The notes below the pieces were generated by a model. It saw only the letters and a list, made by a program, of their open reading frames with translations. It did not search any database and was not told the origin of the DNA. Source: Agathobacter sp. (GTDB lineage Bacteria; Bacillota; Clostridia; Lachnospirales; Lachnospiraceae). Taken from it: a stretch of DNA of 64,000 nucleotides. Each line of letters begins with the position of its first letter. Position 1 is the first letter of the stretch. Shown here piece by piece: positions 54,358 to 60,179 of the stretch. The position numbers and the translations under genes are program-made. The stretch covers positions 62,001 through 126,000 of the forward strand of contig JAFQRZ010000016.1 in NCBI GenBank assembly GCA_017409825.1. Direction: 5' to 3'.

Positions 54358-54675
54358 TTATTCCTCTGCTATCTTTTCTCCTGACAGCTCATAGATATCT
54401 TCAAATGCAATCTTGGTATTTACCACCTTAAGCACTCGCGCATCTGCATCCAATCGCGAAACCATTCCTTCCAGCTTGATATACTCATCTTTACAAAAAT
54501 AAACGACGGTGATGATATCATTTCTCTGAATCTGATGTAATTTAAAATCCAGCTCTGCTTTTTTCTCTTCTGATAATTCGATTTTCTCAACAACAATTTT
54601 CTCTTTCGCGCGCAGTGCTTCCTCGTAGCCTTTGACCGCTGCAAAAGGCACGAATTGTTTCGCTCTGTTATCCAT
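54358..54675 (-). CDS. YolD-like protein
   Basis: A 105-residue protein with the YolD opening (MDNRAKQFVPFAAVKGYEEA) and a small beta-barrel (DIITVVYFCKDEYIKLEGMV). YolD-like proteins are encoded next to UvrX/YqjW-type Y-family polymerases in Bacillus and are thought to form a UmuD-like partner. GGAGG lies 6 nt before the ATG at 54675, which overlaps the end of the polymerase gene by 8 nt. Confidence 0.88.
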   Translation of the reverse strand: MDNRAKQFVPFAAVKGYEEALRAKEKIVVEKIELSEEKKAELDFKLHQIQRNDIITVVYFCKDEYIKLEGMVSRLDADARVLKVVNTKIAFEDIYELSGEKIAEE

Positions 54676-55981
54676 TGGAACCTCCATTTACATATACCGT
54701 CTTTTCCACAACTGTACCACCGGATTTGTGTCCGCCAGTTTGCTGGTTTCGTTCCATCGTGGTAGCCCCCTCTTCCAAATTCATACCCTTTAGAATCGCA
54801 TTCTTACCAAATTTCTTCTTAATATCAATCATAGCACGCTGCATTTTTCGTTCCCTCTCCAGCTCTGCCGGATCAATAAACAAATCATACTGCTGATATG
54901 CCTCATCAATAACATTGTTAAACGAAAGGTTCACGCGGCGAATCCCCATATTTTTCGGAATGATACGCTCATATAACTGCTCCACATAAGGTATCATCGT
55001 CTTCGCAGAGCTGGTCGTAATCGGAAGTGTCGTGGTTCCTCGTGCCATCGGAAGCTCCAACCGATTTTCAAACCCAATTTGCAAAGAAATCGAATCCGTT
55101 ACCAAGCCCTTGTCCACCAAATCCAGACAAAGCAAATCCGTCATCTCTTTTACAATTAAACACCCTTCCTCATGCGTACTTTCACATCCAAGCACCTGTC
55201 CACTCGTAAGACTATTGTGTTTCGGTTTGTATGCCTTAATCTCTGCTATCGTCGTAGGTTCCTTGCCCCATGCATGGTCAATAAGGAGCTCTGCATCCAC
55301 GCCAATCAAGCTGTATAAAACCGCTTCCTTCGCCATCGCAATATCTTTCATCGTATAAATGCCATGCCGTTCCAATCGCTTCGCAATCCCTGCTCCCACG
55401 CGCCAAAAATCCGTAATCGGCTTGTGGTTCCACAAGGTCTTTTTATATAATTCTTCATTTAAGAACGCAGTATTCCCCTTGATATGCTTGGCAGAAATGT
55501 CCAAAGCCACCTTCGCCAGGTACATATTCGTACCAATCCCACACGTGGCAGTAATCCCTGTACTTTTCAGCACATCCTCCATAATAAGTGCGGCAAGCTC
55601 TGCTGCACTCATCTGATACATGCCGAGGTAATCCGTCACATCCATAAATACCTCATCGATGGAATAGACATGAATATCCTCTTTCGCAATATATTTTAAA
55701 TAAATGGCATAAATATCCGCCGACACATCAATATATCTCTGCATACGCGGTGGTGCCATGATGTATTCTAAATTCTCTGGGATTTCAAAAACACGACAGC
55801 GGTTTTTAATTCCCAGCTTTTTCATAGCAGGAGAAATCGCTAGACATATCGTTTTCTGTGTACGTTCCGGATCTGCCACCACAAGCTTCGTCGTCAGTGG
55901 GTCCAAATTGCGATCTGCACATTCTACGGATGCATAAAAGGATTTTAAATCAATACAGATATACATGCGTTCTTTTTCCAT
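54668..55981 (-). CDS. Y-family DNA polymerase (UvrX/UmuC-like)
   Basis: A 437-residue translesion polymerase. The catalytic acids are in CIDLKSFYASVECADRNLDP and VYSIDEVFMDVTDY, with the HhH/thumb region and a little finger domain after. The C-terminus (SGGTVVEKTVYVNGGSNG) is basic and Gly-rich. It belongs to the group paired with YolD. The start at 55981 has AAAGGAGG 8-10 nt upstream. It is divergent from dinB, and a perfect LexA box lies in its promoter spacer, so it is almost certainly SOS-induced. Confidence 0.92.
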   Translation of the reverse strand: MEKERMYICIDLKSFYASVECADRNLDPLTTKLVVADPERTQKTICLAISPAMKKLGIKNRCRVFEIPENLEYIMAPPRMQRYIDVSADIYAIYLKYIAKEDIHVYSIDEVFMDVTDYLGMYQMSAAELAALIMEDVLKSTGITATCGIGTNMYLAKVALDISAKHIKGNTAFLNEELYKKTLWNHKPITDFWRVGAGIAKRLERHGIYTMKDIAMAKEAVLYSLIGVDAELLIDHAWGKEPTTIAEIKAYKPKHNSLTSGQVLGCESTHEEGCLIVKEMTDLLCLDLVDKGLVTDSISLQIGFENRLELPMARGTTTLPITTSSAKTMIPYVEQLYERIIPKNMGIRRVNLSFNNVIDEAYQQYDLFIDPAELERERKMQRAMIDIKKKFGKNAILKGMNLEEGATTMERNQQTGGHKSGGTVVEKTVYVNGGSNG

Positions 55982-55995
55982 TTTACACATCCTCC

Positions 55996-56024
55996 TTTAC
56001 AATTATCTACAGATTTGATATACT
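55996..56024 (+). promoter_or_regulatory. dinB promoter
   Basis: TTTACA (55996-56001) and TATACT (56019-56024) have a 17-nt spacer. The LexA box follows the -10 and would block transcription. Confidence 0.7.
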
Positions 56025-56025
56025 T

Positions 56026-56054
56026 ATTATATATTATCGAACAGACGTTCGCAA
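56026..56054 (-). promoter_or_regulatory. promoter of UvrX-like polymerase gene
   Basis: On the minus strand TTGCGA (56049-56054) and TATAAT (56026-56031) are 17 nt apart. The LexA box lies within the spacer. Confidence 0.65.
56038..56051. promoter_or_regulatory. LexA (DinR) box between two Y-family polymerase genes
   Basis: CGAACAGACGTTCG is a perfect CGAAC-N4-GTTCG site as known for Gram-positive LexA. It is placed so that one repressor dimer covers both divergent promoters. Confidence 0.92.
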
Positions 56055-56064
56055 GAGGTTATTT

Positions 56065-57339
56065 ATGGAACGAGTCATTTTTCACATTGATGTAAATAGT
56101 GCTTTCCTTTCCTGGGAAGCGACATATCGTATGCGTGAATTAGGGGAAACAGAAGATTTGCGTCTGCTTCCATGCGTAGTTGGCGGCTCCGAGGAATCCC
56201 GTCACGGCATTGTATTGGCCAAATCCGAATCTGCCAAGAAATACGGCGTTACCACTGGCGAGCCCCTTGTCGATGCTCGTCGCAAATGTCCTGGGCTTCG
56301 TACCGTTCCTGCGAACTTTCCTATCTATGTTAAATATTCCAATGCCATGATGAAAATATTAGAGGATTACTCCCCGGATATCGAACAATATTCCATTGAC
56401 GAATCCTTCATTGATATGACAGGCACTCAGAATTTATTTGGCCCACCGCTCGAAATCGCACACAAGATTAAAGACCGCATCTACGAAGAGCTGGGGTTTA
56501 CCGTAAATGTCGGTATTTCTACCAACAAATTACTGGCCAAGATGGCTTCTGACTTTAAAAAACCGAACCTCGTACATACGCTTTTCCCAGAAGAGGTTCC
56601 TACCAAAATGTGGCCGCTTCCCGTTTCAGAGCTATTTTTCGTCGGCCGTCAGACCACCAAGCGCCTACACGCACTTGGCATCTTCACGATTGGCGATTTA
56701 GCCCAAACAGATAAGAAGGTTATCGTCGATAACCTAAAAGGTCATGGAGAAGTTATCTGGGAATTTGCCAATGGAATCGGTGACAGCATGGATGATGTTG
56801 CAAACAAGAATCGCAAGCCTGCCAACAAAGGCTATAGCAACGAAACCACCATCGCGTTTGATGTTACCGATGCCGCACTTGCCAAGGAAATCCTGCTCTC
56901 GCTTACGGAAACTGTGGCTACCCGTGTGCGCGCAGACAAGTCCTATATCTCGGTTGTCTCGGTATATTTCGTGGATAATGAATTCCACCACACCTCACGA
57001 CAAATGACCTTGGATTCTGCGACCAATGTAACGAACGAAATCTATCATCACGTCTGCACCCTTTTCGACCAGCTTTGGAATGGCAGACCAATTCGCCTTT
57101 TAGGCGTCCAAACAAGCAAAGCCACTTCGGAAAGCAACCGCCAGTTTTCACTATTTGAAAAACAAAATGTAGAGAAACTATCGAAACTAGATGCTGCCAT
57201 AGACCAGATTCGCAACAAATACGGTGAAGACTCTGTGATGCGTGCATCCTTTGTCAAAACCGAAGAACATAAAGAAGGCCCCCGTCATATGACTGGAGGC
57301 CTAAATAAAGCAAAACGCGATTCCGCTCTTTTACAGTGA
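56065..57339 (+). CDS. dinB: DNA polymerase IV
   Basis: A 424-residue Y-family polymerase. FHIDVNSAFLSWEATYRM and YSIDESFIDMTG hold the catalytic acids; VNVGISTNKLLAKMASDF and the HhH (LHALGIFTIGDLAQTDKKVI) follow, and QFSLFEKQN is a clamp-binding-like motif near the C-terminus. It copies past damaged bases at low fidelity. The frame is open upstream to 55858, but the ATG at 56065 with AGAGG 6-8 nt before it and the family N-terminus marks the start. Its stop codon lies inside the left end of the giant inverted repeat. Confidence 0.94.
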   Translation: MERVIFHIDVNSAFLSWEATYRMRELGETEDLRLLPCVVGGSEESRHGIVLAKSESAKKYGVTTGEPLVDARRKCPGLRTVPANFPIYVKYSNAMMKILEDYSPDIEQYSIDESFIDMTGTQNLFGPPLEIAHKIKDRIYEELGFTVNVGISTNKLLAKMASDFKKPNLVHTLFPEEVPTKMWPLPVSELFFVGRQTTKRLHALGIFTIGDLAQTDKKVIVDNLKGHGEVIWEFANGIGDSMDDVANKNRKPANKGYSNETTIAFDVTDAALAKEILLSLTETVATRVRADKSYISVVSVYFVDNEFHHTSRQMTLDSATNVTNEIYHHVCTLFDQLWNGRPIRLLGVQTSKATSESNRQFSLFEKQNVEKLSKLDAAIDQIRNKYGEDSVMRASFVKTEEHKEGPRHMTGGLNKAKRDSALLQ

Positions 57340-57978
57340 TGATTTAGTGAAGAATTGCTCTTTTCCACAATATAAGAAAAGGGGCTGTTGCAAATATTTA
57401 TTTGTCGACCCCTTATTTTTATATTTCGATATATATATGTCTCTATTTTACAGATGCACTTCCTCTCAGTTAAGAAAAACGCTAATTTCTAAGAAACACA
57501 CTTCCTGCTTCTATGATTTATTCTGTCTGTCAAAAGTTTTACACTCTGCACCACTTTGTGCGTGTGCAAAAGGACACCCTTGCGAGGATTTCGTCGTTTC
57601 TCTTATGTGGGCAGGATTATAAAATGTCATGAGCCATGCAAACTGTTCGACGCACCGTTCTTGTGCGGAGTTTTTGCATGGCTCATGTAATATCACCTTT
57701 ATAAGACTGCCCACATTAGAGAAACAGAAATTTGAGAACGGTGTCTGTTGCACATCGTACAAAGTGGTGCAGAGTGTAAAAGCTATGACAGACACAAAAC
57801 TTAAGCAGGAAGTGTGTTTTAAGAAATTTAAGCGTTTTCCTTAAAGGTTCGAAAATGCATCTGTAAAATAGAGACATATATATTTCAAGACATGAAGAAA
57901 GGGCGTCGACAAATAAATATTTGCAACAGCCCCTTTTCGTAGTATATAGAAAAACTCAATTCTTCACTAGATCATCAC
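57336..57978. repeat. giant imperfect inverted repeat (about 640 bp hairpin)
   Basis: The two halves are reverse complements around a centre near 57657. Exact blocks include 57345-57357 with 57957-57969 (13 nt), 57376-57409 with 57905-57938 (34 nt), 57431-57458 with 57856-57883 (28 nt), 57537-57559 with 57759-57781 (23 nt) and 57628-57642 with 57673-57687 (15 nt). The tip is CGCAC-cgttctt-GTGCG. The ends run into the stop codon of dinB and the last codons of the MraY-like gene. No conserved coding frame was found inside. A single transcript of either strand would fold into one rod-like hairpin. Confidence 0.92.
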
Positions 57979-58929
57979 CGCATAAATCGCAGCTACCGAT
58001 ACGATAATCTGAATAATCGCAAAGCGGAATACCACCTGTGCATTGGACCAATCTTTATTCTTACGAACATGGTCGTGAAGAGGTGTTCTGGTATTCTTTA
58101 AGATATGTATCTTAAGGAATCGTAATAATGCCACTTTCACGAGTCCCAAACCACCATCTAAGATAAATACGATGGCAAAGAGCAGGTACATCAAAGGACT
58201 ACCTGATTTTAATGCTACGATAGCAAGGAAAATACCCATTGCGCGGGAACCTGCATCACCCATCAAAAGCTTGCTTGGTGTTGCATTGTACCAAAGGTAT
58301 CCCAAAAGTGATACTGCAAATAATAAAATCAAGAAGTTAAAGTCATCTTCCACGCCCATAATTGTATTCAGTGCGAAGAAAGATACCATACTGATAATCG
58401 CAAGTGTTCCCGACAAACCATCAACACCATCCGTACAGTTGGTTACGTTGATTGCAGCCCAAACCAGAATAACGGTAAGAATTGCAAACAGTACTGGTGG
58501 AATCGTAACAGTAATTCCCAATAAAGCGATTACGATTGTAGAAGTGTTATAATGAAGATATACCAGTGCAACTACAACTGCTACTGCTAAATCCAAAAAT
58601 CCTTTTAAATATTCACCCCATGGCTTTTCTGCCGCATCATCGAAATATCCAGTCAGCATTTCCACAATAATAAGCACCAGATAAATTGCGATTTCCATGT
58701 TCATCTGCGCAAACAAAACTGCTGCGATAGCAAACGTAAATACAAAGATAAGACCCGCACCTCTTGGTTTTCCTGCAGAAAGCTTTCCATCGTGTGCAAA
58801 ATCACGCCCCATATCCCTTGGCAGGAACTTTTCAAATTTGGCAATCGCAACACAAGTCAATGCAAAAGCAAACAATATACCAATAAATGCTACCACTGAA
58901 AAATCAATTCCATTGATTAAGTTAATCAT
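57967..58929 (-). CDS. MraY-like phospho-sugar transferase
   Basis: A 320-residue protein with about ten membrane helices. Catalytic loops of the MraY/WecA family are present: GYFDDAAEKPWGEYLKGFLD, NCTDGVDGLSGTLAI and LLMGDAGSRAMG. MraY makes lipid I for peptidoglycan; WecA/TagO relatives start teichoic or other polymers. The sequence NCTDGVDGL favours MraY, but it lies outside the usual cell-division cluster, so a second copy with another substrate is possible. Its last four codons lie within the giant inverted repeat. Confidence 0.85.
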   Translation of the reverse strand: MINLINGIDFSVVAFIGILFAFALTCVAIAKFEKFLPRDMGRDFAHDGKLSAGKPRGAGLIFVFTFAIAAVLFAQMNMEIAIYLVLIIVEMLTGYFDDAAEKPWGEYLKGFLDLAVAVVVALVYLHYNTSTIVIALLGITVTIPPVLFAILTVILVWAAINVTNCTDGVDGLSGTLAIISMVSFFALNTIMGVEDDFNFLILLFAVSLLGYLWYNATPSKLLMGDAGSRAMGIFLAIVALKSGSPLMYLLFAIVFILDGGLGLVKVALLRFLKIHILKNTRTPLHDHVRKNKDWSNAQVVFRFAIIQIIVSVAAIYAVMI

Positions 58930-60037: not shown

Positions 60038-60075
60038 AAGTAAACAACTTTTCATTTATATGTACTCCTTTATAC

Positions 60076-60114
60076 AAGAAAAGCTGGTGGGCGTTATGCC
60101 TATCAGCTTTTCTT
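60076..60114 (+). terminator. intrinsic terminator of aldolase gene
   Basis: AAGAAAAGCTG and CAGCTTTTCTT pair as an 11-bp stem with further inner pairing (GGC/GCC). Further T residues follow. Confidence 0.75.
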
Positions 60115-60126
60115 CATTATATAATT

Positions 60127-60167
60127 ACGAGGGTGGTCGCAAATATCTATTTGCCGACCACCCTCGT
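60127..60167 (-). terminator. intrinsic terminator of nrdG
   Basis: ACGAGGGTGGTC and GACCACCCTCGT pair over 12 bp, closed at the top by GCAAATA/TTTGC. The sequence resembles the sub-hairpins in the giant inverted repeat. The U-tract is weak (TAATTAT). Confidence 0.75.
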
Positions 60168-60179
60168 GATTTCCATATT

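Follow-up and report, generated by a model that had tools for sequence, protein, structure and literature searches.

Inverted repeat between dinB and mraY

The inverted repeat studied here lies in a 64-kb stretch of Agathobacter DNA (hereafter the window) and reaches the ends of two genes, dinB and a gene of an MraY-like protein (mraY). These names are supported by models of DNA polymerase IV and by mraY TIGR00445, in both cases below the curated cut-offs. Positions 54668–57339 of the window hold two neighbouring divergent genes of Y-family polymerases; both match DNA polymerase IV models, again below the curated cut-offs.

The giant inverted repeat that an earlier note had described was confirmed. 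Its co-centred arms extend from 57329–57483 and 57831–57985 (155 nt, 81% match) inward to 57628–57642 and 57673–57687, the innermost pair being 15 nt long with 100% match. Folding of each strand gave a single hairpin of ~640 nt, with energies of −353.5 kcal/mol (z −39.0) and −360.3 kcal/mol (z −33.8) against means of about −145 kcal/mol in 20 shuffles per strand. Mismatches between the arms are indeed clustered as internal loops, and the loop positions are equal in other copies. The outer 22 nt (57336–57357 and 57957–57978) are inverted copies of each other with one difference. In the 64-kb window a degenerate pattern with up to two mismatches allowed returned only these two sites, none being expected (100 shuffles). 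As had been noticed, the arms end inside two genes, overlapping the stop codon of dinB (57337–57339) and, on the other side, the MraY-like gene in its last codons and stop (gene end at 57967).

The features of the window are given below, together with the data on which they are based. Here and further on G000 is the own genome of the window, G007 is Agathobacter sp. RGIG4703 (JAFUPI01), G063 is Lachnospiraceae SIG322 (SVFC01) and G013 is Agathobacter sp. SUG88 (JALEKN01).

57404–57910, plus strand (oriented by conserved loops): core of the long-hairpin element, 507 nt, aligned with 20 other copies of 499–511 nt; 161 consensus pairs
57381–57412, no strand: left A-type end, terminator-like hairpin GGGGCTGTTGCAAATATTTATTTGTCGACCCC (sequence; similar ends in other copies)
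57900–57933, no strand: right A-type end, inverted counterpart of the left one (sequence; similar ends in other copies)
57336–57357, no strand: outermost part of the left arm, which covers the stop codon of dinB and is an inverted match of the 3′ end of mraY (present also in L027, the orthologue in G007)
57957–57978, no strand: outermost right arm, comprising the end of the MraY-like gene (last codons and stop) and the bases directly after it (sequence; mraY ends of relatives)
57460–57475, plus strand: left side of a conserved asymmetric loop, CTCTCRGTTAAG in most copies (copy alignment, consensus structure)
57838–57853, plus strand: right side of the same conserved asymmetric loop, CTTAAAGGTTCGAAA (copy alignment, consensus structure)
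57620–57706, plus strand: apical domain with the cross-species motif AAAATGT, CTGTYTGA...GAGTTT, TAATATCA (copy alignment, recurrence of the motif in other species)
60038–60179, no strand: site orthologous to that of the G007 insertion L030 but lacking the element, flanked by an aldolase-like gene and nrdG (orthologous-site comparison)
60129–60165, no strand: solo hairpin resembling an A-type end, inside the element-less L030 site (sequence of that site)

Family of dispersed hairpins

The 640-base repeat belongs to a family of long hairpins that are dispersed between genes in some gut bacteria. The earlier note had tied its reading to the existence of copies elsewhere; searched for in related genomes, they proved to be many and dispersed. 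By Blast the repeat had 67 matches in G000 and 79 in G007 (both strands and halves at contig ends counted), these two being the only genomes with matches among the 60 compared, own genome included. R1, a covariance model built on 148 apical columns, found a match in 7 of 62 genomes of the genus. After merging its rows of both strands we counted 26 element places in G000, 32 in G007, 17 in G063 and 14 in G013; a copy split between contig ends may have entered these counts as two. The broader model R2, which has only 15 base pairs, matched in 15 of the 62 (G021 and G028 just at E 6e-4 to 7e-4) and in 6 of 397 family genomes including the own one, adding four further Lachnospiraceae genera with 1 to at least 8 matches each among the best 8 candidates per genome. 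Both models miss members, for instance L158 in G035, which was recognised by eye. It is a long family member with very different arms, located directly after dinB in this distant species. No match was found in phages, plasmids and viral contigs. A pattern scan of named genomes gave 59 hits, of which 49 fell in four Lachnospiraceae assemblies; the other 10 came from ten unrelated records, one each, and were taken as chance.

The closely studied carriers are draft assemblies, some of them incomplete (G007, 71%). Since palindromes break assemblies, copy numbers of the element are approximate. The hairpins themselves help to explain such fragmentation: 12 of the 20 first-listed Blast loci of the own genome are within 2 nt of a contig end.

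Covarying arms and conserved loops

An alignment (A1) of 21 copies was made over a core of 499–511 nt (L022 and L026 are cut by contig ends), with L034, L035 and L068 excluded as partial. The consensus is a single hairpin of 161 pairs in 12 helices, with conserved asymmetric loops between them. Helix sequence varies between copies yet pairs within each copy: 97.2% of cells pair, and at 80 of the 161 pairs one or more copies have both partners replaced. Covariation, which had been suggested as a check, turned out to be massive, with 285 double-change cells versus 72.5 in shuffles and 23–49 in slid versions of the alignment. Species with little helix similarity nevertheless share the motif of the apex, AAAATGT – stem – CTGTTTGAG – hairpin – CGAGTTTT – stem – TAATATCAACTTTG. 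A search for it found none in L150, L109, L114 and L158; L137 and L151 had the motif and were omitted from alignment A3.

Two or more kinds of ends occur in the element: A is a terminator-like hairpin and B is an end with AATTCCGATTT. By a crude ORF test none of the 21 copies is inside a gene. The 17 copies with both neighbours visible are found between convergent (7), divergent (3) or co-directional (7) genes, and all ten A-type copies among them lie beside at least one gene 3′ end, seven of them beside two. A shortened copy of ~254 nt was also observed in G063 (L141), its arms running directly into a terminator-like stem (GTTGCACACT/AGTGTGCAAC and then T).

Mismatch spectrum of the arms

When folding of an RNA is selected, G·U pairs are tolerated and A·C are not. 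The ratio of G·T to A·C cells was 46/37 in G000 and G007 (21 copies), 32/33 in G063 (11 copies) and 40/47 in G013 (11 copies), giving in sum 118 G·U versus 117 A·C cells and, thus, no wobble preference, even though the pairs were picked by a program favouring G·U. In contrast, 17 RNase P RNAs from the genus, which Rfam assigns to class A and which served as a control, had 40 G·U versus 8 A·C cells (Fisher P 2e-5 for cells). Cells are not independent, so column events are safer; they were 84/97 for the element and 20/6 for RNase P (Fisher P 0.006). This control is limited in that paralogues (the element) are set against orthologues (RNase P), which evolve differently. With G·U-free structures the contrast was weaker (62/78 versus 10/3, Fisher P 0.039). 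Lack of the G·U preference, unlike RNase P, suggests that complementarity of the arms is kept mainly at the DNA level.

In the 64-kb window no Rfam family reached its gathering score. The best weak match at the locus was MIR8565 (E 0.0003; 34.6 bits versus a cut-off of 136). RNA families of introns were likewise absent at gathering score from the window and at E up to 10 from the locus, and promoter-like sites in the element showed no excess over shuffles. The element is probably not a functional RNA.

Insertion sites

Comparison of orthologous sites indicates that the element is mobile: 8 of 9 tested copies are missing at the orthologous site in a related species. The G007 copy L030, located between the aldolase-like gene and nrdG, is missing from the window itself at 60038–60179. 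Element-less orthologous sites were found in G000 for L025, L028, L031 and L036, in G007 for L002 and L010, and in G024 for L019; L010 is element-less also in G024 and G011. For the ninth copy, L023, the two flanks are separated in G000: the right one borders, at a contig end, on an element from a different subfamily, while the left one is found elsewhere with a solo A-type hairpin after it. Gain and loss at these sites were not formally separated, but absence of L010 from three relatives favours gain there. The dinB–mraY copy is common to G000 and G007 and is, therefore, older.

Filled A-type sites (L025, L028, L019) consist of a hairpin, the element and a hairpin, their place being taken in the element-less allele by a single ordinary terminator hairpin. 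At B-type sites the element looks like a plain insertion with unequal candidate duplications. Candidate direct repeats are TTCAA (L036), AATATTT (L031) and AAAAGCCTT (L010), i.e. 5, 7 and 9 nt, so that target duplication is not constant; none was clear at the other tested sites, and AAAAGCCTT does not fit the element-less alleles of L010. No fixed ends were found among the copies. A search of the own genome with one end-sequence pattern, made for a transposon sharing the termini, returned only the dinB–mraY copy. The domain Y1_Tnp (PF01797) was absent from six of eight carriers (G000, G007, G063, G010, G078 and G073) and present in G013 (1) and G035 (7), as well as in three of eight genomes without a model-detected element. 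Of the readings proposed in the earlier note, the MITE-like element has the best support, given the many dispersed intergenic copies and polymorphic insertions, although these limited searches revealed no transposase, and neither fixed ends nor a constant target duplication were found.

Solo A-type hairpins without an adjoining element were observed in L326 (G000:C14:48200–49100) and at 60129–60165 of the window. The latter was first read as a relic of an excised element; with another such hairpin in G000, it may also be simply a kind of terminator. Both solo hairpins may have been left behind by elements since lost, or this species may commonly use terminators of such a type.

The flank match at G000:C6, followed for an autonomous partner, holds other hairpins. 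Within L061:1–500 (G000:C6:5600–6100) there are two other long inverted repeats (arms 18–71/161–214 and 298–341/445–488) with different inner sequences. One of them shares ~50 nt with the right outer flank of the dinB–mraY copy, and further hairpin families may possibly exist in G000.

Copying and inversion of the arms

The phase of the outermost loop relative to the inner loops was clear in 16 of the 21 copies (L023, L025, L029, L063 and L016 were set aside), and both kinds were registered, in 10 and 6 copies. At the orthologous dinB–mraY locus of the two species the outer ~120 nt match best in gene orientation, while the inner part matches best when flipped. In eight recent copies of G063 the inner 264 nt are 97% identical, versus 74% in the next 120 nt outward; in these outer 120 nt, loops included, the left and right arms agree by 74% within a copy and by 64% across copies. 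L145 has an inverted inner part and L140 hybrid arms. Complementarity between left and right flanks exceeds that of cross-copy pairs in 16 of 18 copies (fraction 0.046 or less), the exceptions being L023 (0.25) and L016, whose core boundary is uncertain.

The arms, therefore, seem to stay matched through recopying of one from the other. Both the lack of G·U preference and the inner inversion fit arm copying at the DNA level, i.e. template switching, which, according to PMC8604942, homogenises arms of inverted repeats and inverts spacers, and which PMC8794818 reports to maintain hairpins.

Ends inside two genes may have the same origin. In many relatives mraY terminates in frame with GTGATGATTTAG or its close variant (L081, L085, L087 and L088, for instance), but in G024, G063 and G011, the closest relatives examined, the end of mraY differs (L075–L077), and dinB of G011 and G063 also has a different end. 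On the simplest reading, GTGATGATTTAG would belong to mraY and the dinB side would have received its inverted copy, a direction and a mechanism that we infer; this copy would now supply the stop region of dinB in both G000 and G007. Arm copying may have placed the inverted mraY 3′ end beside dinB, which would explain ends inside two genes. An element-less dinB–mraY junction was looked for, and among the listed mraY neighbours no other relative had dinB there, so that a clean empty site is lacking for this junction. Inverted duplication of a 3′ flank, also proposed earlier, is plausible for the outermost ~22 nt and only for them; as a lone event it was rejected, since a whole family of copies exists. 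In G013 a shorter hairpin directly after mraY (L080) keeps the loop motif TTTATTATGTCTTC...AAGACACAA without the apical domain and is perhaps a decayed member.

Nature of the element

Based on these data we consider it fairly probable that the repeat belongs to a family of mobile long-hairpin DNA elements that encode no protein, have a core of about 0.5 kb and are intergenic in Agathobacter and some other Lachnospiraceae, and that their arms are kept complementary by arm copying. Complementarity would be held at the DNA level, mainly by template switching in replication or by strand copying between the arms of an extruded hairpin. The same process would invert the inner part and spread outward into the flanks, as it may have done in bringing the inverted mraY end to the dinB stop codon. 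A weak point is that the conserved asymmetric loops must be protected from this copying by a selection that we assume; the loops may be recognised on folded DNA by mobilising machinery, for which no candidate was found. Absence of a mobilising enzyme, fixed ends and constant target duplication among our findings counts against this explanation, as does the modest agreement of the G063 outer arms; L140, with its hybrid arms, and L023 and L016, with no excess of flank complementarity, fit it poorly.

The same data can be read otherwise. Dispersed intergenic copies, insertion polymorphism and the candidate direct repeats of L036, L031 and L010 agree with a MITE that is ordinary in all but its great size. 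It would have arisen by deletion from a classical transposon with long terminal inverted repeats and would be mobilised in trans by a DDE transposase, its complete hairpin being incidental. We hold this unlikely, since the candidate repeats are unequal in length and that of L010 misfits the element-less alleles, there are at least two end types, the end-sequence search led back to the dinB–mraY copy, and a plain MITE predicts neither covarying helices nor the inner flip. It is quite unlikely that the palindrome has no transposase and propagates itself. In this case hairpins would switch templates with each other in replication, by which the arms are repaired and the element is copied into resident terminator hairpins, and the machinery would be nothing but the fold and the conserved loops steering host enzymes of replication or repair.

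Still less expected is a large structured RNA with a fold under selection, multiplied to many copies. Its favourable signs, very strong covariation with conserved loops and stable folds of both strands, are opposed by the absence of G·U preference in three sets as compared with the clear one in RNase P and by the outer and inner loops occurring in both relative orientations, and neither an Rfam family at gathering score nor promoter-like sites commoner than in shuffles point to an RNA; the structured RNA suggested in the earlier note is, therefore, not favoured. As to a large two-way terminator or insulator selected for termination between genes, the terminator-like A-type ends, their constant vicinity to gene 3′ ends and the ordinary terminator carried at the same place by element-less alleles L288, L289 and L293 speak for it. 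It is nevertheless highly improbable, because the neighbouring genes are divergent at three copies and co-directional at others, the model finds no element in 47 of 62 genus genomes, and the length is far beyond the needs of termination. For its divergent and co-directional sites, patchy presence and excess length, the element as a large terminator only was rejected.

Long palindromes are normally regarded as unstable in bacteria, but the genomes compared here keep dozens of hairpins half a kilobase long, which move and evolve in concert. As a set of natural replicates, the family can be used to study copying, inversion and spread of DNA hairpins. It is also a warning that strong covariation alone is no proof of a functional RNA, and the count of G·U versus A·C with RNase P as a yardstick is a simple check.

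Comparison with known systems

In the open-access literature searched no description of this hairpin family was found, and no paper at all on palindromes or hairpins in Agathobacter. Integron attC sites resemble the element in being recognised as folded single-stranded DNA with sequence-variable arms, but they are much shorter and are tied to an integrase and cassette arrays. As in MITEs, the family is non-coding, with many dispersed copies and polymorphic insertions. Stem-loop MITEs of bacteria (Correia/NEMIS, ERIC/RU-1, RUP, YAPL/RU-2) are likewise non-coding, intergenic and multicopy, with a stable stem-loop over the whole element. They are, however, about 100–200 bp long as given in PMC2229807, while our element has about 500–650 nt, conserved asymmetric loops, copy-specific covarying arms and an inner inversion. 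REP, BIME and REPIN sequences, mobilised by Y1 transposases (RAYT/IS200-type), are also extragenic multicopy palindromes, but REPs measure 20–40 bp according to PMC3733652, and Y1_Tnp is missing in most of the element carriers. Group IIC introns, described in PMC10190682 as inserting at DNA stem-loops, differ from the element, which consists of one long hairpin and has no open frame common to its copies; no intron family reached gathering score in the window. Homogenisation of quasipalindromes by template switching (PMC8604942, PMC8794818) shares with the element both the matching of arms and the inversion of the spacer. It is a mutation process known for short repeats rather than a mobile family, whereas here it would act on half-kilobase elements and reach the flanking genes. 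We place the family among mobile hairpin repeats as a variant and assign it to no named family.
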